This document shows positions 58,486 to 64,000 of a stretch of DNA of 64,000 bases, in pieces; position 1 is the stretch's first letter, and every line of letters starts with the position of its first letter. The stretch spans positions 1 to 64,000 of the forward strand of contig CALGPN010000002.1 in the NCBI GenBank assembly GCA_937960435.1, given 5' to 3'. The DNA is from an uncultured Desulfosoma sp. GTDB lineage: Bacteria > Desulfobacterota > Syntrophobacteria > Syntrophobacterales > DSM-9756. The notes under the pieces were generated by a model that ran no database searches, was not told the DNA's origin, and saw only the letters and a program-made list of their open reading frames with translations. The position numbers and the translations under genes are program-made.

Positions 58486-59748
58486 CTACCATATCCCCTG
58501 CCCGTCCTTAAGGGATTTCCTCTGCGGATGCCCCCACGGGGCGAAGCGGGGAAGAAGGAGGATGCCCGGCACGGCGCCGAGGACGCTCACGATGTAGAAC
58601 CACGTCCAGCCCAAGGCGGATGCCAGGTATCCGGTGGGGGCTCCGGCCAGAACGCGGGAGACGGCCATGAGGCTGGAAAGGAGCGCGTATTGGGTGGCGG
58701 TGTAACGGCGGTTGCAGAGGCTCATGAGGAACGCGAGAAAAGCCGCCGTGCCCAGCCCGCCGCAGAGATTTTCCACGGCCACCGCCCCGACCATGGCGGC
58801 ATAGTTCCGGCCGGCTGCAGCCAAACCTGCAAAAGCCAAATTGGAAAACGCCTGCGCAAAGGCCGCCAGCCACAGGGATCGCCCGATGCCGAGTCGGTGC
58901 ACCGTCCCGCCTCCGATCAACGTCCCCACGATGGTGCTCACCAACCCGAAAGCCTTGTTCACCGTCCCCACATCGGTGCGGGTGAAGCCGAGATCCAGCA
59001 AAAACGGCGTGGTCAACGCTCCCGCCAAGGCATCGCTCAACTTGAACACCATGATGAACCCCAACATGGCTAGGGCACCGGGCCGGGTGAAATAGTCCGC
59101 GAAAGGCGCCCACACGGCTTCCTTAAGGGTCGAGGGGCGGGCAAGGGAGGCGTCGCGGGTCGGTTCGGGGCAGAAAAGGGTCCACAAAGCACAGCCGGCC
59201 ATGACCATCCCCATGGCGGTATAGACCGCCCGCCACGGCACATGGTCGGAAAGAATCAAGGCCATGGCCCCCGATGTGAGCATGGCGAGACGATAACCTG
59301 CGACACTCACCGCCGCCCCGGCGCCTTTGTCCGAATCGGGCAGCACTTCCGCCCGGTAAGCGTCGATGACGATGTCCTGACTGGCGCTCCAGAAGGCGGC
59401 GAGCAGAGCCAGCATGCCCATGAGGTGAAGGTGGCGGGTCGGGCTGAGCGATCCCAAAAGGATGAGACTTGCGCAGAGAAGGAGCTGGGTGGTAAGGATC
59501 CATCCCCGGCGCCTGCCGAGCCACGGGGCGGCGAATCGGTCCATGACGGGGGCCCACACCATTTTGATGGTGTAGGGGAGGCCGACTAGGGAAAAGAGGC
59601 CGATGAGCCGGATGTCCACCTTTTCGGACATCATCCAGGCTTGCAGTGTGCTTCCGGTCAGGGCCAAGGGAAGACCGGAGGAAAACCCCAAACCCAAGAG
59701 TCCGAGAACGTGTCGGCGACCGTAGACGGTGATCCAGGATGGAGGCAC
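58486..59748 (-). CDS. ampG: AmpG-type muropeptide permease (MFS)
   Basis: A 420-residue protein with about 12 spans. LGLLGLGFSSGLPLALTGST and LGWTWFYIVS mark the AmpG/acetyl-CoA-transporter-like branch, with LVGLPYTIKMVWAPVMDR, FWSASQDIVIDAYRAEVLP and GAAVSVAGYRLAMLTSGA. AmpG imports GlcNAc-anhydroMurNAc peptides for cell-wall recycling. The start is GTG at 59748 with GAGGAG 5 nt upstream. It converges on the PPC-domain gene and diverges from the KamA-like gene. Confidence 0.93.
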   Translation of the reverse strand: MPPSWITVYGRRHVLGLLGLGFSSGLPLALTGSTLQAWMMSEKVDIRLIGLFSLVGLPYTIKMVWAPVMDRFAAPWLGRRRGWILTTQLLLCASLILLGSLSPTRHLHLMGMLALLAAFWSASQDIVIDAYRAEVLPDSDKGAGAAVSVAGYRLAMLTSGAMALILSDHVPWRAVYTAMGMVMAGCALWTLFCPEPTRDASLARPSTLKEAVWAPFADYFTRPGALAMLGFIMVFKLSDALAGALTTPFLLDLGFTRTDVGTVNKAFGLVSTIVGTLIGGGTVHRLGIGRSLWLAAFAQAFSNLAFAGLAAAGRNYAAMVGAVAVENLCGGLGTAAFLAFLMSLCNRRYTATQYALLSSLMAVSRVLAGAPTGYLASALGWTWFYIVSVLGAVPGILLLPRFAPWGHPQRKSLKDGQGIW

Positions 59749-59901
59749 GGTGGCTCCTCACGAGGATTGTTCGTGACGGGGGGCTTTCCCCAGCGCACGC
59801 TCAAGCGGCGTCAAAGTAACCGACAGAGCATGAGCGCCGGAAAGCCCACGGGGACGGTCGAAAAAAGGGTTTGGGACCACAAAGGGGAAAATGTCGATCC
59901 G

Positions 59902-60954
59902 ATGATCTCTGTGGAACGTTTTGCAGCGCACTGGCGTGTGCCTTTAGAACCCTTGGCGGCGGTTCATGAGGTCTACCCGTTCGTTCTGAGCCGCCATTTT
60001 GCCGGCCTCATCACATCCCCCGGTGATGCGCTGTGGCGGCAAGTGGTGCCGGATGTGCGGGAATTGGACGCGCTCGATCCCTTCGGCCTGCAAGACCCTT
60101 TAGGAGAAGAGCGCCGATCCCCCGTGCCCAATCTGGTGCATCGCTACCCCGATCGGGTGCTGTGGATCGTCACGGACGCCTGTGCCGTCCATTGCCGCTT
60201 TTGCACACGAAAGCGCCGATGGTCCCGCTCCATGCCGCTGACCGAGGACCATGTTCGGGCCGCCCTGGACTATATCCAAAAAAACCCATCCGTGCGGGAT
60301 GTCCTCCTCTCCGGCGGGGATCCTCTGATGCTCCCCGTCGATTTCCTGGAAGCCTTATGCGCCGCATTGCGCGAAATTCCCCATGTGCGCATTCTCCGGA
60401 TCGGCACCCGAGTTCCCTTTGCCGACCCACGCCGAGTGACCCCCTCCGTGGCGCGGCGCCTCGCGGCTTTCCAACCGATCTACATCAACATCCATGTGAA
60501 CCATCCCCAGGAAATTTCTCCCGAAAGCCGCGAAGCCTGTCGTTTTCTGGCCGACGCCGGCATCCCCTTGGGCAGCCAGACGGTGCTCCTCAAAGGCGTC
60601 AACGACGACGCGGCGGTGCTCGGCACCCTTTTCACGGAATTGCTCACCTTGCGCGTCCGTCCCTATTACCTGCTCCAGATGGATCTCATGCACGGCACAG
60701 CCCACTTCCGCACCCCCCTCACGGCCGGGCCGCAGCTCATGGCGGCTCTGCGACACCGCATTTCCGGTCTGGCCATTCCCCAGGTCGTGGTGGATCTCCC
60801 CGGAGGGCTTGGGAAGGTGCCGTTGACGGCGTCGGCCGTGGTTCGCCTGGAAGAGGATCGGGCGGTGTTTCGAAACGCCGCGGGCGAGGAAGCCGCCTAT
60901 CCTCTGGAACCCGGCGAAGAAGAGCGCGTGCGGCGTCTTCTGGGGGCGAGGTGA
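59902..60954 (+). CDS. KamA-family radical SAM aminomutase (EpmB / lysine 2,3-aminomutase-like)
   Basis: About 350 residues. Seen: RQVVPDVRELDALDPFGLQD, the radical SAM cysteines in DACAVHCRFCTRKRRW, VLLSGGDPLMLP, RIGTRVPFADPRRVTPSVA, GSQTVLLKGVNDDAAVLG and YYLLQMDLMHGTAHFRTPL, all standard for the lysine 2,3-aminomutase family. PLP is held by a Lys in the C-terminal part (LGKVPL). Members either make beta-lysine or act with EpmA on elongation factor P; without an efp or epmA neighbour the role is open. ATG 59902 starts the domain; ATG 59829 would add 24 residues, and neither has a strong ribosome binding site. Confidence 0.9.
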   Translation: MISVERFAAHWRVPLEPLAAVHEVYPFVLSRHFAGLITSPGDALWRQVVPDVRELDALDPFGLQDPLGEERRSPVPNLVHRYPDRVLWIVTDACAVHCRFCTRKRRWSRSMPLTEDHVRAALDYIQKNPSVRDVLLSGGDPLMLPVDFLEALCAALREIPHVRILRIGTRVPFADPRRVTPSVARRLAAFQPIYINIHVNHPQEISPESREACRFLADAGIPLGSQTVLLKGVNDDAAVLGTLFTELLTLRVRPYYLLQMDLMHGTAHFRTPLTAGPQLMAALRHRISGLAIPQVVVDLPGGLGKVPLTASAVVRLEEDRAVFRNAAGEEAAYPLEPGEEERVRRLLGAR

Positions 60955-60968
60955 TCCCTCGGATTCTT

Positions 60969-63299
60969 TCATGAAACCCGTTGCCAAAGAGGACCGTGCG
61001 GGGTGTCGCGAACCACAATCCCCAAACGCCGCAGTTCGTCGCGCAAGGCATCGGCCCGGGCCCAATCCTTGGCGGCGCGGGCCTCCTCCCGTTGTGCTAT
61101 GAGCGCCTTTTCTTCCGGGGACAAGGCGCGCAGATCCCGCTCAAAAAGCCCCAAAATCCGGTCCACGCTCTCAAGGGCCTTAAGCACGGCCTCCTTGGCT
61201 CTCGTCGTCAGAGGCCCCCGTTGCATCCGGAGATTCATCTTTCGCACGAAGTCGAAAAGCGCCGCCAGGGCTTTGGGGGTGTTGAGGTCGTCGGCCAGGG
61301 CGTCGAAGAAACCACGTTCCAAGGAAAACACTTCTTCTTCCACCCCGTCGGTGCCCTGGTCTTCAACGGGCACATGATGCACACGGTTGATGAATTCGCG
61401 GATTCTCTTGAGCCCCTGCGCCGCGCTGCGAAGGCTTTGGGAGGAGACCTTCATGGGTTTTCGGTAGTGAGAAGCAATGAGCCAGAATCGGATTTCAGCG
61501 GGCGTCATCCCCTGGGCGGTGAGGTCTTCCAAGGTTAACCCTTTGGAGGTCTCCGCGGGCGGCATTTCGAGGGTTTTCTCCTCGTCGGCGAGCTGGATCC
61601 TTTCGGTGAGAAGCCAGATGTTGGCGTAGGGCTTTCCGGCGAGCGCCCGCGCGATGGTGTGGACGTTTTCCAGGTGAGGGAAGAGGAAATCCATGCCGCT
61701 CACGCACAGATCCAGGGGGAATCCGAACCGATCCATGACCATGGCCGCCGCGGCGATATGCCATGTGGGGACCACGTTGCCCCATTCCGTTTTCATATAG
61801 TCGCCGCGTTTGAGTTCGGCCAGGGTGGCCCGTTTGAGCAAGGCGAAGTCGCGTGGGTTCAGTTTCTCGTAAGCACTCAAGTCCACGGAAGAACCGGGGC
61901 GAATCTTCTTGGGGTCAACCCCGGAAAGACGGCCGTAGTCGTCCATTTGGGCCACACTGAAATAGACGGAACGCAGCTTTTCGTAAGCCGCCCCCTTTTT
62001 GAGCAGCGAACGCACCAGGGCGACGACGGCTTCCATGTGTTCGGACGTCTTGGTGGTGACGAGCTGGGGGGCCATGCCCAGTTTTTCCAGTTCCGAGGTG
62101 AAGACGGCCGTTCTTTCCTGGACGTAGTGCTCCAGGCTTGTCCCTTTTTCGGCGGCGCACTGGATGGATCGGCTGTCCAGGTCGGGGAGAAGCACGACGG
62201 TTTCCGCACGGAACCCTTTCGAACGCACGAAGCGGGTGAGGACATCGGCCAGCATGAGACGTCGGGCGGTCTCCAGCGACAGGCAGGAGTCCAGGGGGGG
62301 GCCGGTGACGGCAATGCGGATTTTGCCTTCCACGACGGGTTTGAAGTCCACTTTGTCCCGCCTCAGAAAGTCGAAAAACCGGAAGTCCGGCTCCAGCATG
62401 GTGGTGAAAAGGTTCGTGCTGAGATAGCGGTCTCCGCCGTCGGGGAGCACGGCCACAATCACGCCGTCTTGGCGTTCCTTGGCGATTTCCACGGCGGCCG
62501 CCATGCACGCCCCGGAACTCATGCCCACAAAGAGTCCCTCCTCTCGCGCCAGCCGGCGGGCCATTTCAAAGGCGTCTTCATCCTTGACGTGGACGATGCG
62601 GTCCAGTTTGTGGCGGTCGAAAATGCCGGGGACGTAAGATTCCTTCATGTTTTTGAGGCCTTGGATCTTATGCCCCGGATAGGGTTCCACGGCCACGACT
62701 TCAATGGCCGGGTTGCGTTCTTTCATGGCCTGAAGGATGCCCATGGCGGTGCCGCTGGTTCCCAGGGTCGTCACCACCACGTTCACGCGTCCTTCCGTCT
62801 GGTCGTAAATTTCCGGGCCTGTGCCTCGATAATGGGCTTCGGGGTTGGCCAAGTTGTTGAACTGATCCGCCAGGAAGTACTTTTCCGGGTGCTCCCTCAC
62901 CATCCGATAGACTTCCTCGATGGCGCCGTCTGTGCCCAATGCGCCGGGGGTGAGCAGAAGTTCGGCCCCGAGGGCCTTCAGAATCTTTTGGCGTTCCAGG
63001 CTCGCGGTTTCGGGCATGGCCAGGATGAGCCGATAGCCTTTGACGGCGGCCACCACGGCCAAGCCGATGCCCGTGTTTCCGCTGGTGGCTTCGATGATGG
63101 TTTTGTCCGCAGTGAGTTCCCCTTTGCGTTCGGCCGCCTCGATCATGAAAAGGGCCGTGCGGTCTTTGATGGAGCCTCCGGGGTTTTTACATTCGAGTTT
63201 GGCGTAGATGGTCGTTCGAGGGTTGGGGTTGAGGCGGTTGATGCGCACGAGGGGGGTGTTGCCGATGGCTTGCAGGACGTTGTCGAACACGTTTTTCAT
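60969..63299 (-). CDS. Cysteine synthase fused to a catalytically degenerate cysteinyl-tRNA synthetase-like domain
   Basis: A 776-residue fusion. Residues 1-305 are an O-acetylserine sulfhydrylase-type cysteine synthase: NVLQAIGNTPLVRIN, Schiff-base Lys45 in NPGGSIKDRT, TSGNTG at 72-77, LGTSGTAMG at 179-187 and LPDGGDRYLST at 285-295. Residues 305-776 follow a cysteinyl-tRNA synthetase from start to end, including the C-terminal DALR-type helical part and the last helices. Yet the key sites differ: the CG of VCG before HIGH is VTG (331-333), HIGH is replaced by LSLE, WHIECSAM is WHIAAAAM (513-520), FPHHENEIAQ is FPHLENVHTIA and KMSKS is absent (SKGLTLEDL). Zinc and adenylate sites are therefore lost. 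The ATG at 63299 has GGAGA upstream. Confidence 0.9.
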   Translation of the reverse strand: MKNVFDNVLQAIGNTPLVRINRLNPNPRTTIYAKLECKNPGGSIKDRTALFMIEAAERKGELTADKTIIEATSGNTGIGLAVVAAVKGYRLILAMPETASLERQKILKALGAELLLTPGALGTDGAIEEVYRMVREHPEKYFLADQFNNLANPEAHYRGTGPEIYDQTEGRVNVVVTTLGTSGTAMGILQAMKERNPAIEVVAVEPYPGHKIQGLKNMKESYVPGIFDRHKLDRIVHVKDEDAFEMARRLAREEGLFVGMSSGACMAAAVEIAKERQDGVIVAVLPDGGDRYLSTNLFTTMLEPDFRFFDFLRRDKVDFKPVVEGKIRIAVTGPPLDSCLSLETARRLMLADVLTRFVRSKGFRAETVVLLPDLDSRSIQCAAEKGTSLEHYVQERTAVFTSELEKLGMAPQLVTTKTSEHMEAVVALVRSLLKKGAAYEKLRSVYFSVAQMDDYGRLSGVDPKKIRPGSSVDLSAYEKLNPRDFALLKRATLAELKRGDYMKTEWGNVVPTWHIAAAAMVMDRFGFPLDLCVSGMDFLFPHLENVHTIARALAGKPYANIWLLTERIQLADEEKTLEMPPAETSKGLTLEDLTAQGMTPAEIRFWLIASHYRKPMKVSSQSLRSAAQGLKRIREFINRVHHVPVEDQGTDGVEEEVFSLERGFFDALADDLNTPKALAALFDFVRKMNLRMQRGPLTTRAKEAVLKALESVDRILGLFERDLRALSPEEKALIAQREEARAAKDWARADALRDELRRLGIVVRDTPHGPLWQRVS

Positions 63300-63656
63300 C
63301 GCACCGCAATCTCCAAGGTGAGTTTGCCGCAGGTCGCCGTGGCGGCTCGGAGTTTTCTGCAAACCTTCCGCCGGGAACTCGGCGGGTATAGTGAATGGTT
63401 TCCGGGCCTTTGTCAAAGGGTATGGGCTGCGGGAAGAAGCCGGTCCGGAGAGCGAACCGGGAAGAGTGAGGAAAGCGGGCGCGCTCTCAAGGGGGTGACG
63501 GCAAGATGCGTGTTTTCAAGTGTTTGACGACTTCCGGGTGAGGCGCTATATATACGCGGATTGGGCCTAGAGGATGCACTTGGTAAAGACCATGGCGGGG
63601 AGCCTGGGTAAGTGTGCCGAAGACGACAAGGTGGGGAGCGCGACAAGGAGCGATCG
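63300..63656. other. Divergent spacer before panE
   Basis: 357 bases without a supported gene. It contains the panE promoter (63524-63552) and a long leader of about 100 nt. No good minus-strand promoter for the cysteine synthase fusion was found. Confidence 0.5.
63524..63552 (+). promoter_or_regulatory. Sigma-70 promoter for panE
   Basis: TTGACG at 63524-63529, a 17-nt spacer and TATATA at 63547-63552: one mismatch in the -35, two in the -10. Confidence 0.65.
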
Positions 63657-64000
63657 ATGAAGATCGGGGTCATGGGAACGGGAGGAGTCGGGGGATACTT
63701 CGGGGGTTTTCTCGCACGCGCCGGAATGGACATCCATTTTGTGGCCCGAGGAAAGCACTTGGAGGCCTTGCAGGAGGAGGGCCTGGAGGTGGTGACCAAC
63801 AACGAAAACTTCCGAGTGCGCATCCACGCCACGTCCGAGCCCGAAGAGATCGGTCCGGTGGATCTGCTCCTTTTTTGCGTCAAATCCCATGATACCGAAA
63901 AAGCCGCGCGGTTCGCCGAGCCCATGGTGGAAGCCGATACGGTGATCCTCACCCTTCAAAACGGCATCGACAACGCCGAGAAACTCGCTCGCCATTTCGG
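63657..64000 (+). CDS. panE: Ketopantoate reductase (2-dehydropantoate 2-reductase), partial
   Basis: The first 114 codons of a gene that runs off the right edge. It begins MKIGVMGTGGVGGYFGGFLA, a Rossmann NADP-binding motif (GxGxxG), then VARGKHLEALQEEGLEVV, LLFCVKSHDTEKAA and TLQNGID, the typical order of the ApbA/PanE family (LxxxVKxxxT and LQNG). It reduces 2-dehydropantoate in pantothenate/CoA synthesis, although many homologues act on other 2-keto acids. AAGGAG lies 6 nt before the ATG and a promoter at 63524 serves it. Confidence 0.9.
   Translation, partial: MKIGVMGTGGVGGYFGGFLARAGMDIHFVARGKHLEALQEEGLEVVTNNENFRVRIHATSEPEEIGPVDLLLFCVKSHDTEKAARFAEPMVEADTVILTLQNGIDNAEKLARHF

Follow-up and report, generated by a model that had tools for sequence, protein, structure and literature searches.

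HisZ, a paralogue of HisRS without adenylation activity, regulates HisG in histidine synthesis (PMC9437257). The CysRS* of Desulfobacterales, a paralogue of cysteinyl-tRNA synthetase (CysRS), lacks the anticodon-binding domain and charges a selC* tRNA-Cys; selC* tRNA-Cys genes are reported in both Syntrophobacterales and Desulfobacterales (PMC7609411). Outside translation, the CysRS paralogue MshC is the mycothiol cysteine ligase. The eukaryotic kinase GCN2 contains a dead HisRS-like domain, fused to the enzyme and thought to sense tRNA charging. A review of synthetase paralogues includes MshC and CysRS* under CysRS, with HisZ under HisRS, and a fusion of CysK with CysRS is absent from it. No description of such a fusion was found in open-access papers, and the novelty of the one reported here is provisional, resting on that literature.

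The stretch of DNA analysed (the window, 64,000 nucleotides from an uncultured Desulfosoma sp., a Desulfacinum relative) encodes in one chain a CysM-type cysteine synthase and a full-length CysRS-like half (Table 1). The frame opens with an ATG at 63299, giving the N-terminus MKNV, a start common to its relatives. The initial annotation had proposed an intact cysteine synthase joined to a CysRS homologue, complete to its DALR tail, that had lost its catalytic sites by something other than random decay. The fusion is real: Pfam PALP (residues 9–287, 1.9e-71) is followed by tRNA-synt_1e (319–626, 2.7e-44), DALR_2 (664–720) and CysS_C (725–767). CysS_C is detected in 48 of 53 fusions.

Table 1. 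Features of the cysteine synthase–CysRS fusion gene (window positions; residues of the fusion protein; CysRS positions in E. coli numbering)
Feature	Position	Strand	Remarks
Whole fusion gene, CysM-type synthase joined to CysRS-like protein	60969..63299	-	776 aa
Cysteine synthase half, residues 1-300	62400..63299	-	NCBIfam cysKM 378.7 bits, cut-off 344
K45, PLP Schiff-base lysine	63165..63167	-	invariant in 98 fusions
K216 in short loop HKIQGLKNM	62652..62654	-	at the Arg220 position of M. tuberculosis CysM
CysRS-like half, residues 308-775	60975..62378	-	homology, Pfam, modelled fold
T332 replacing zinc ligand Cys28	62304..62306	-	E. coli numbering
SLET, residues 341-344, replacing HIGH	62268..62279	-	alignment
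R346-R347, equivalent to Arg42 and Arg43	62259..62264	-	Arg42 kept; Arg43 fusion-specific
A517 replacing zinc ligand Cys209	61749..61751	-	E. coli numbering
H542, zinc-ligand position His234, retained; His of FPHLEN	61674..61676	-	kept in all fusions
V546 replacing zinc ligand Glu238	61662..61664	-	E. coli numbering
Lost KMSKS loop region, residues 568-588	61536..61598	-	mostly low model confidence
DALR domain, residues 664-720	61140..61310	-	Pfam DALR_2
Anticodon-binding domain, residues 725-775	60975..61127	-	Pfam CysS_C match 725-767

With E. coli CysS (PDB 1u0b, 1li5) the fusion shares full-length homology, fold, anticodon residues and the DALR domain, but it has lost HIGH, KMSKS, Cys28, Cys209 and Glu238 and is joined to a cysteine synthase. 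Mycobacterium tuberculosis CysM, the O-phosphoserine sulfhydrylase (PDB 3dwg), has the same kind of PLP active site and a short loop with a basic residue at the Arg220 position; unlike the fusion it has no C-terminal CysRS-like half, and the fusion is a putative user of O-phosphoserine. The likeness to HisZ, drawn in the initial annotation, is apt in that the adenylation site is lost, the residues of the biosynthetic enzyme are intact, and a catalytically dead synthetase paralogue is tied to the biosynthesis of its own amino acid; HisZ, however, derives from HisRS (class II) and is a separate subunit. MshC is likewise a CysRS paralogue outside translation, but its active site ligates cysteine, and it is unfused and has no anticodon-binding domain, a domain that the fusion has; the window protein scores 110 bits on MshC, for which the cut-off is 485. 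CysRS*, another odd CysRS paralogue of the same phylum, is the mirror image, having kept catalysis and lost the anticodon domain where the fusion has done the reverse. GCN2 likewise joins an enzyme to a dead synthetase domain, although it is a kinase with a histidyl domain of unrelated sequence.

The N-terminal half has the PLP lysine and substrate loop of a CysK/CysM enzyme, and K45, S73, N75, T76 and Q146 are invariant in 98 of 98 fusions. K216 is equally invariant and is missing from the CysK genes linked to serine acetyltransferase, which have a long loop ending IGAGF in place of the short CysM loop. The M. tuberculosis CysM sequence used for this alignment was checked against the PDB. E. 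coli CysM also has Arg at the K216 position, and the loop and its basic residue therefore prove nothing by themselves about O-phosphoserine use.

Genome content bears on the substrate as well. The other PALP enzymes of the window's genome are threonine ammonia-lyase, a threonine dehydratase, threonine synthase, TrpB and a TrpB-like protein, which leaves the fusion as the only cysteine synthase found there, and this assembly (95% complete) has no serine acetyltransferase match at E<=1e-15. Among 35 fused genomes, counted individually irrespective of shared ancestry, the fusion is the sole cysKM match in 20. Exactly these 20 show no strong match to serine acetyltransferase, with weaker hexapeptide matches alone in two of them. 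In the remaining 15 a further CysK occurs together with an acetyltransferase, adjacent in the inspected cases. Because sole synthase and absent acetyltransferase always go together, this pattern points to O-phosphoserine, and together with the short-loop Lys216 it leads us to infer that this is the fusion's substrate. Stand-alone short-loop CysM-like synthases with the same Lys occur in genomes of the phylum that have neither fusion nor acetyltransferase (L184 to L190), which gives the acetylserine-free type a broader distribution than that of the fusion. For many relatives of sulfate reducers, the fusion family suggests acetylserine-independent cysteine synthesis as the likely main route. Some fused genomes contain a long serine acetyltransferase (L194, L195, L196), with frames of ~320–340 aa that fall below the TIGR01172 cut-off and lie beside a CysK-type gene.

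The C-terminal half of the window protein is not a functional CysRS by its motifs: HIGH reads SLET, KMSKS is absent, and the NCBIfam cysS score is 244.4 bits, below the cut-off of 340. The E. coli CysRS reference has the expected residues at positions 28, 209, 234, 238, 427, 432, 436 and 451. The annotated loss of HIGH, KMSKS and zinc ligands is right for the two motifs and for Cys28, Cys209 and Glu238, but not for His234, the one ligand of four that is kept, as H542. A second, canonical cysS, called for by the same annotation, is present in the genome at G000:C9 (582 bits to TIGR00435, cut-off 340). Judged against the best motif-retaining fusion (461 bits), a separate cysS is apparent in at least 144 of 149 fused genomes; the five without a clear second copy (G060, G078, G131, G265 and G395) are drafts, 62–94% complete. 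The possibility that the fusion is its genome's sole CysRS is ruled out by the canonical cysS in nearly all fused genomes.

Two results go beyond the initial annotation: the phylum-wide spread of the fusion, and its standing as the sole cysteine synthase found in those fused genomes that lack serine acetyltransferase. A search for other fusions, which the annotation had proposed, recovers the gene in Desulfacinum and further members of the Syntrophobacteraceae. Within the class, 51 of 56 genomes have it, with one further partial match, and within the phylum ~149 of the 395 genomes sampled, over a third. The last count comprises open frames of at least 740 residues; at E<=1e-80 there are 157 matches, eight of them near the threshold and without coordinates. 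In close pairs dN/dS is ~0.03–0.06 for the synthase half and 0.11–0.13 for the CysRS-like half, both purifying. Recent pseudogenisation of the C-terminal half is ruled out by the open frame in ~149 genomes and the low dN/dS, in keeping with the annotation's view that this is not random decay.

A tree built from 121 CysRS sequences places the fused CysRS halves in a single clade (SH-aLRT 99), separate from the canonical CysRS that these genomes also carry; the trees are quick searches with SH-aLRT support only. Arg43 marks the clade, occurring in 87 of 87 fused and 0 of 34 unfused sequences. Neighbouring the clade on the tree are unfused cysS genes from one Heimdallarchaeota record, one Patescibacteria record and a further genome of the phylum to which the Heimdallarchaeota record belongs. 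Each of the three adjoins a cysK, and the CysRS motifs are intact in the Heimdallarchaeota and Patescibacteria copies. In the Heimdallarchaeota pair (L012:5350-7656), cysK and cysS abut with zero gap, and another CysS is encoded elsewhere in that genome. This pair likely pictures the state before fusion, and the simplest history from these sequences would be that a cysK–cysS pair was joined once. Searches of the Patescibacteria and Heimdallarchaeota phyla returned unfused copies only, and a search of 399 genomes of the Caldanaerobacter phylum, run without a positive control, gave no match at E<=1e-95.

Within the fused clade the catalytic motifs have decayed repeatedly. The tree requires 10 changes at His37 of HIGH, 10 at Lys266 of KMSKS, 4 at Cys28, 4 at Cys209 and 8 at Glu238. 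Fully dead members, defined as lacking Cys28, His37 and Cys209, make up 27 of the 87 fusions and need ~4 changes. The annotation had asked whether the motif loss is shared, and allowed that relatives with intact motifs could expose it as recent and isolated. More-intact relatives are indeed found: four zinc ligands persist together with HxG and KxS in 20 of 87, six motif-retaining fusions score 430–461 bits on cysS (cut-off 340), and a single one, L079, is nearly canonical, with HLGN, KMSRS and all zinc ligands. The loss is nevertheless class-wide, and neither recent nor isolated. On their residues, the 20 might still bind or activate cysteine.

The anticodon-binding domain behaves differently. 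Residues R737, R741, W746, D750, R753 and D765 correspond to R423, R427, W432, D436, R439 and D451 of E. coli CysRS. Arg423, Asp436, Arg439 and Asp451 are conserved in 98 of 98 fusions, position 427 is always Arg or Lys, position 432 is always aromatic, and the anticodon-contact positions show 0 changes on the tree. In structure 1u0b, G34 of tRNA-Cys is contacted by Arg427, Asp436, Trp432 and Arg423 (PMC12684709). Canonical CysRS has 6 invariant residues in the anticodon domain and 85 in the rest of the protein; the 27 fully dead members keep all 6 of the former and 33 of the latter (Fisher p 0.005). The anticodon region is short, with six invariant columns, and folding may explain why some of its residues are kept. 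Modelling gives the C-terminal half a CysRS fold (pTM 0.84, mean pLDDT 82.8), with low-confidence stretches that include the lost KMSKS loop, and the closest structure is 1u0b, the CysRS–tRNA-Cys complex (TM 0.74). The full-length fusion, modelled as a single chain, reaches pTM 0.58, and the orientation of its two halves is poorly predicted.

The reading that we favour, with roughly even confidence, is that the fusion is a cysteine synthase with a non-catalytic tRNA-Cys-binding module that would couple cysteine synthesis to tRNA-Cys; the binding, the substrate and the control are all inferred. A PLP-dependent, CysM or O-phosphoserine-type synthase would bear a C-terminal CysRS unable to activate cysteine and still presenting an anticodon-binding surface for tRNA-Cys. 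The ligand would be tRNA-Cys, perhaps in its uncharged form, and its binding may switch or position the synthase. Cysteine production could then respond to the condition of the tRNA-Cys pool, and take place near the canonical CysRS. Such a module is the simplest account, since the tRNA-reading residues are kept, the activation chemistry has been lost in several lineages, and the join to a working synthase has been maintained. More tentatively, and rather less probably, a pseudo-synthetase that reads tRNA-Cys, perhaps its charging state, sets the activity of the synthase, which would make this a bacterial biosynthetic enzyme under direct tRNA control, a counterpart in idea to GCN2, in use over much of a phylum.

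Other readings have to be weighed against a tRNA-Cys-binding module. Of the options raised in the initial annotation, tRNA-Cys binding is the best supported, by anticodon contacts that are kept while catalysis decays, and cysteine sensing at the zinc site is unlikely in the window protein because three of the four ligands are gone. It is unlikely, more generally, that the CysRS-like half tunes the synthase as HisZ does HisG, by sensing a small molecule (cysteine or some other metabolite) independently of tRNA. That precedent exists, all four zinc ligands are kept in 34 of 87 fusions, so that an ancestor could have bound cysteine, and His234, Glu236, Asn237 and Arg42 persist among the core residues of dead members; yet the window protein lacks HIGH and KMSKS as well, and small-molecule sensing leaves the strict conservation of the anticodon domain unexplained. 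Sensing of this kind is less likely for the window member and possible for the ancestor. A purely structural role is also improbable. On that view the C-terminal half would do no more than stabilise the synthase or its oligomer, or tether it to a partner protein, with the anticodon surface maintained because it folds the tail. The heavy degradation of the catalytic region would suit such a role, as would a dN/dS in the CysRS-like half ~2–5 times that of the synthase half in close pairs, but the G34-contacting residues are specifically retained phylum-wide, and unfused CysM works without any such domain.

Much harder to sustain is a tRNA-based synthesis like that of archaeal SepRS/SepCysS, in which the CysRS-like half would hold seryl- or phosphoseryl-tRNA-Cys for the PLP half. 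One chain does unite O-phosphoserine-type synthase features with tRNA-Cys-binding features, but none of 35 fused genomes has a SepRS match over the cut-off (positive controls matched), a canonical CysRS is present, the PLP half resembles an enzyme of free amino acids, and the charging step has no known candidate. That the CysRS-like half still activates cysteine, whether for tRNA charging or for MshC-like small-molecule ligation, is the least credible reading, for the motifs and scores of L079 and other motif-retaining relatives favour it but the window protein, like its class, is without HIGH, KMSKS and three of the zinc ligands, and that protein falls short of both the cysS and the MshC cut-offs.

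If the C-terminal half does bind tRNA-Cys, amino acid synthesis would be physically tied to the tRNA pool within one polypeptide, with no riboswitch or transcription factor. The family also forms a natural graded series of synthetase inactivation, from near-intact through partly decayed to dead, with the tRNA-binding residues fixed, and this series is useful for asking how synthetases turn into regulators.

No structured RNA of Rfam is matched at 58500–64000 around the gene, and no conserved cysteine-specific gene set was found in the neighbourhood of the fusion across genomes. The genes flanking it are of the housekeeping kind, for example thymidylate kinase in a minority of genomes and a ketopantoate-reductase-like gene in close relatives. 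In the window, a KamA/EpmB-like radical SAM gene (59641–60954) is convergent with the fusion and ends ~15 bases from it, and the ketopantoate-reductase-like gene (63612–63998) is divergent from it.
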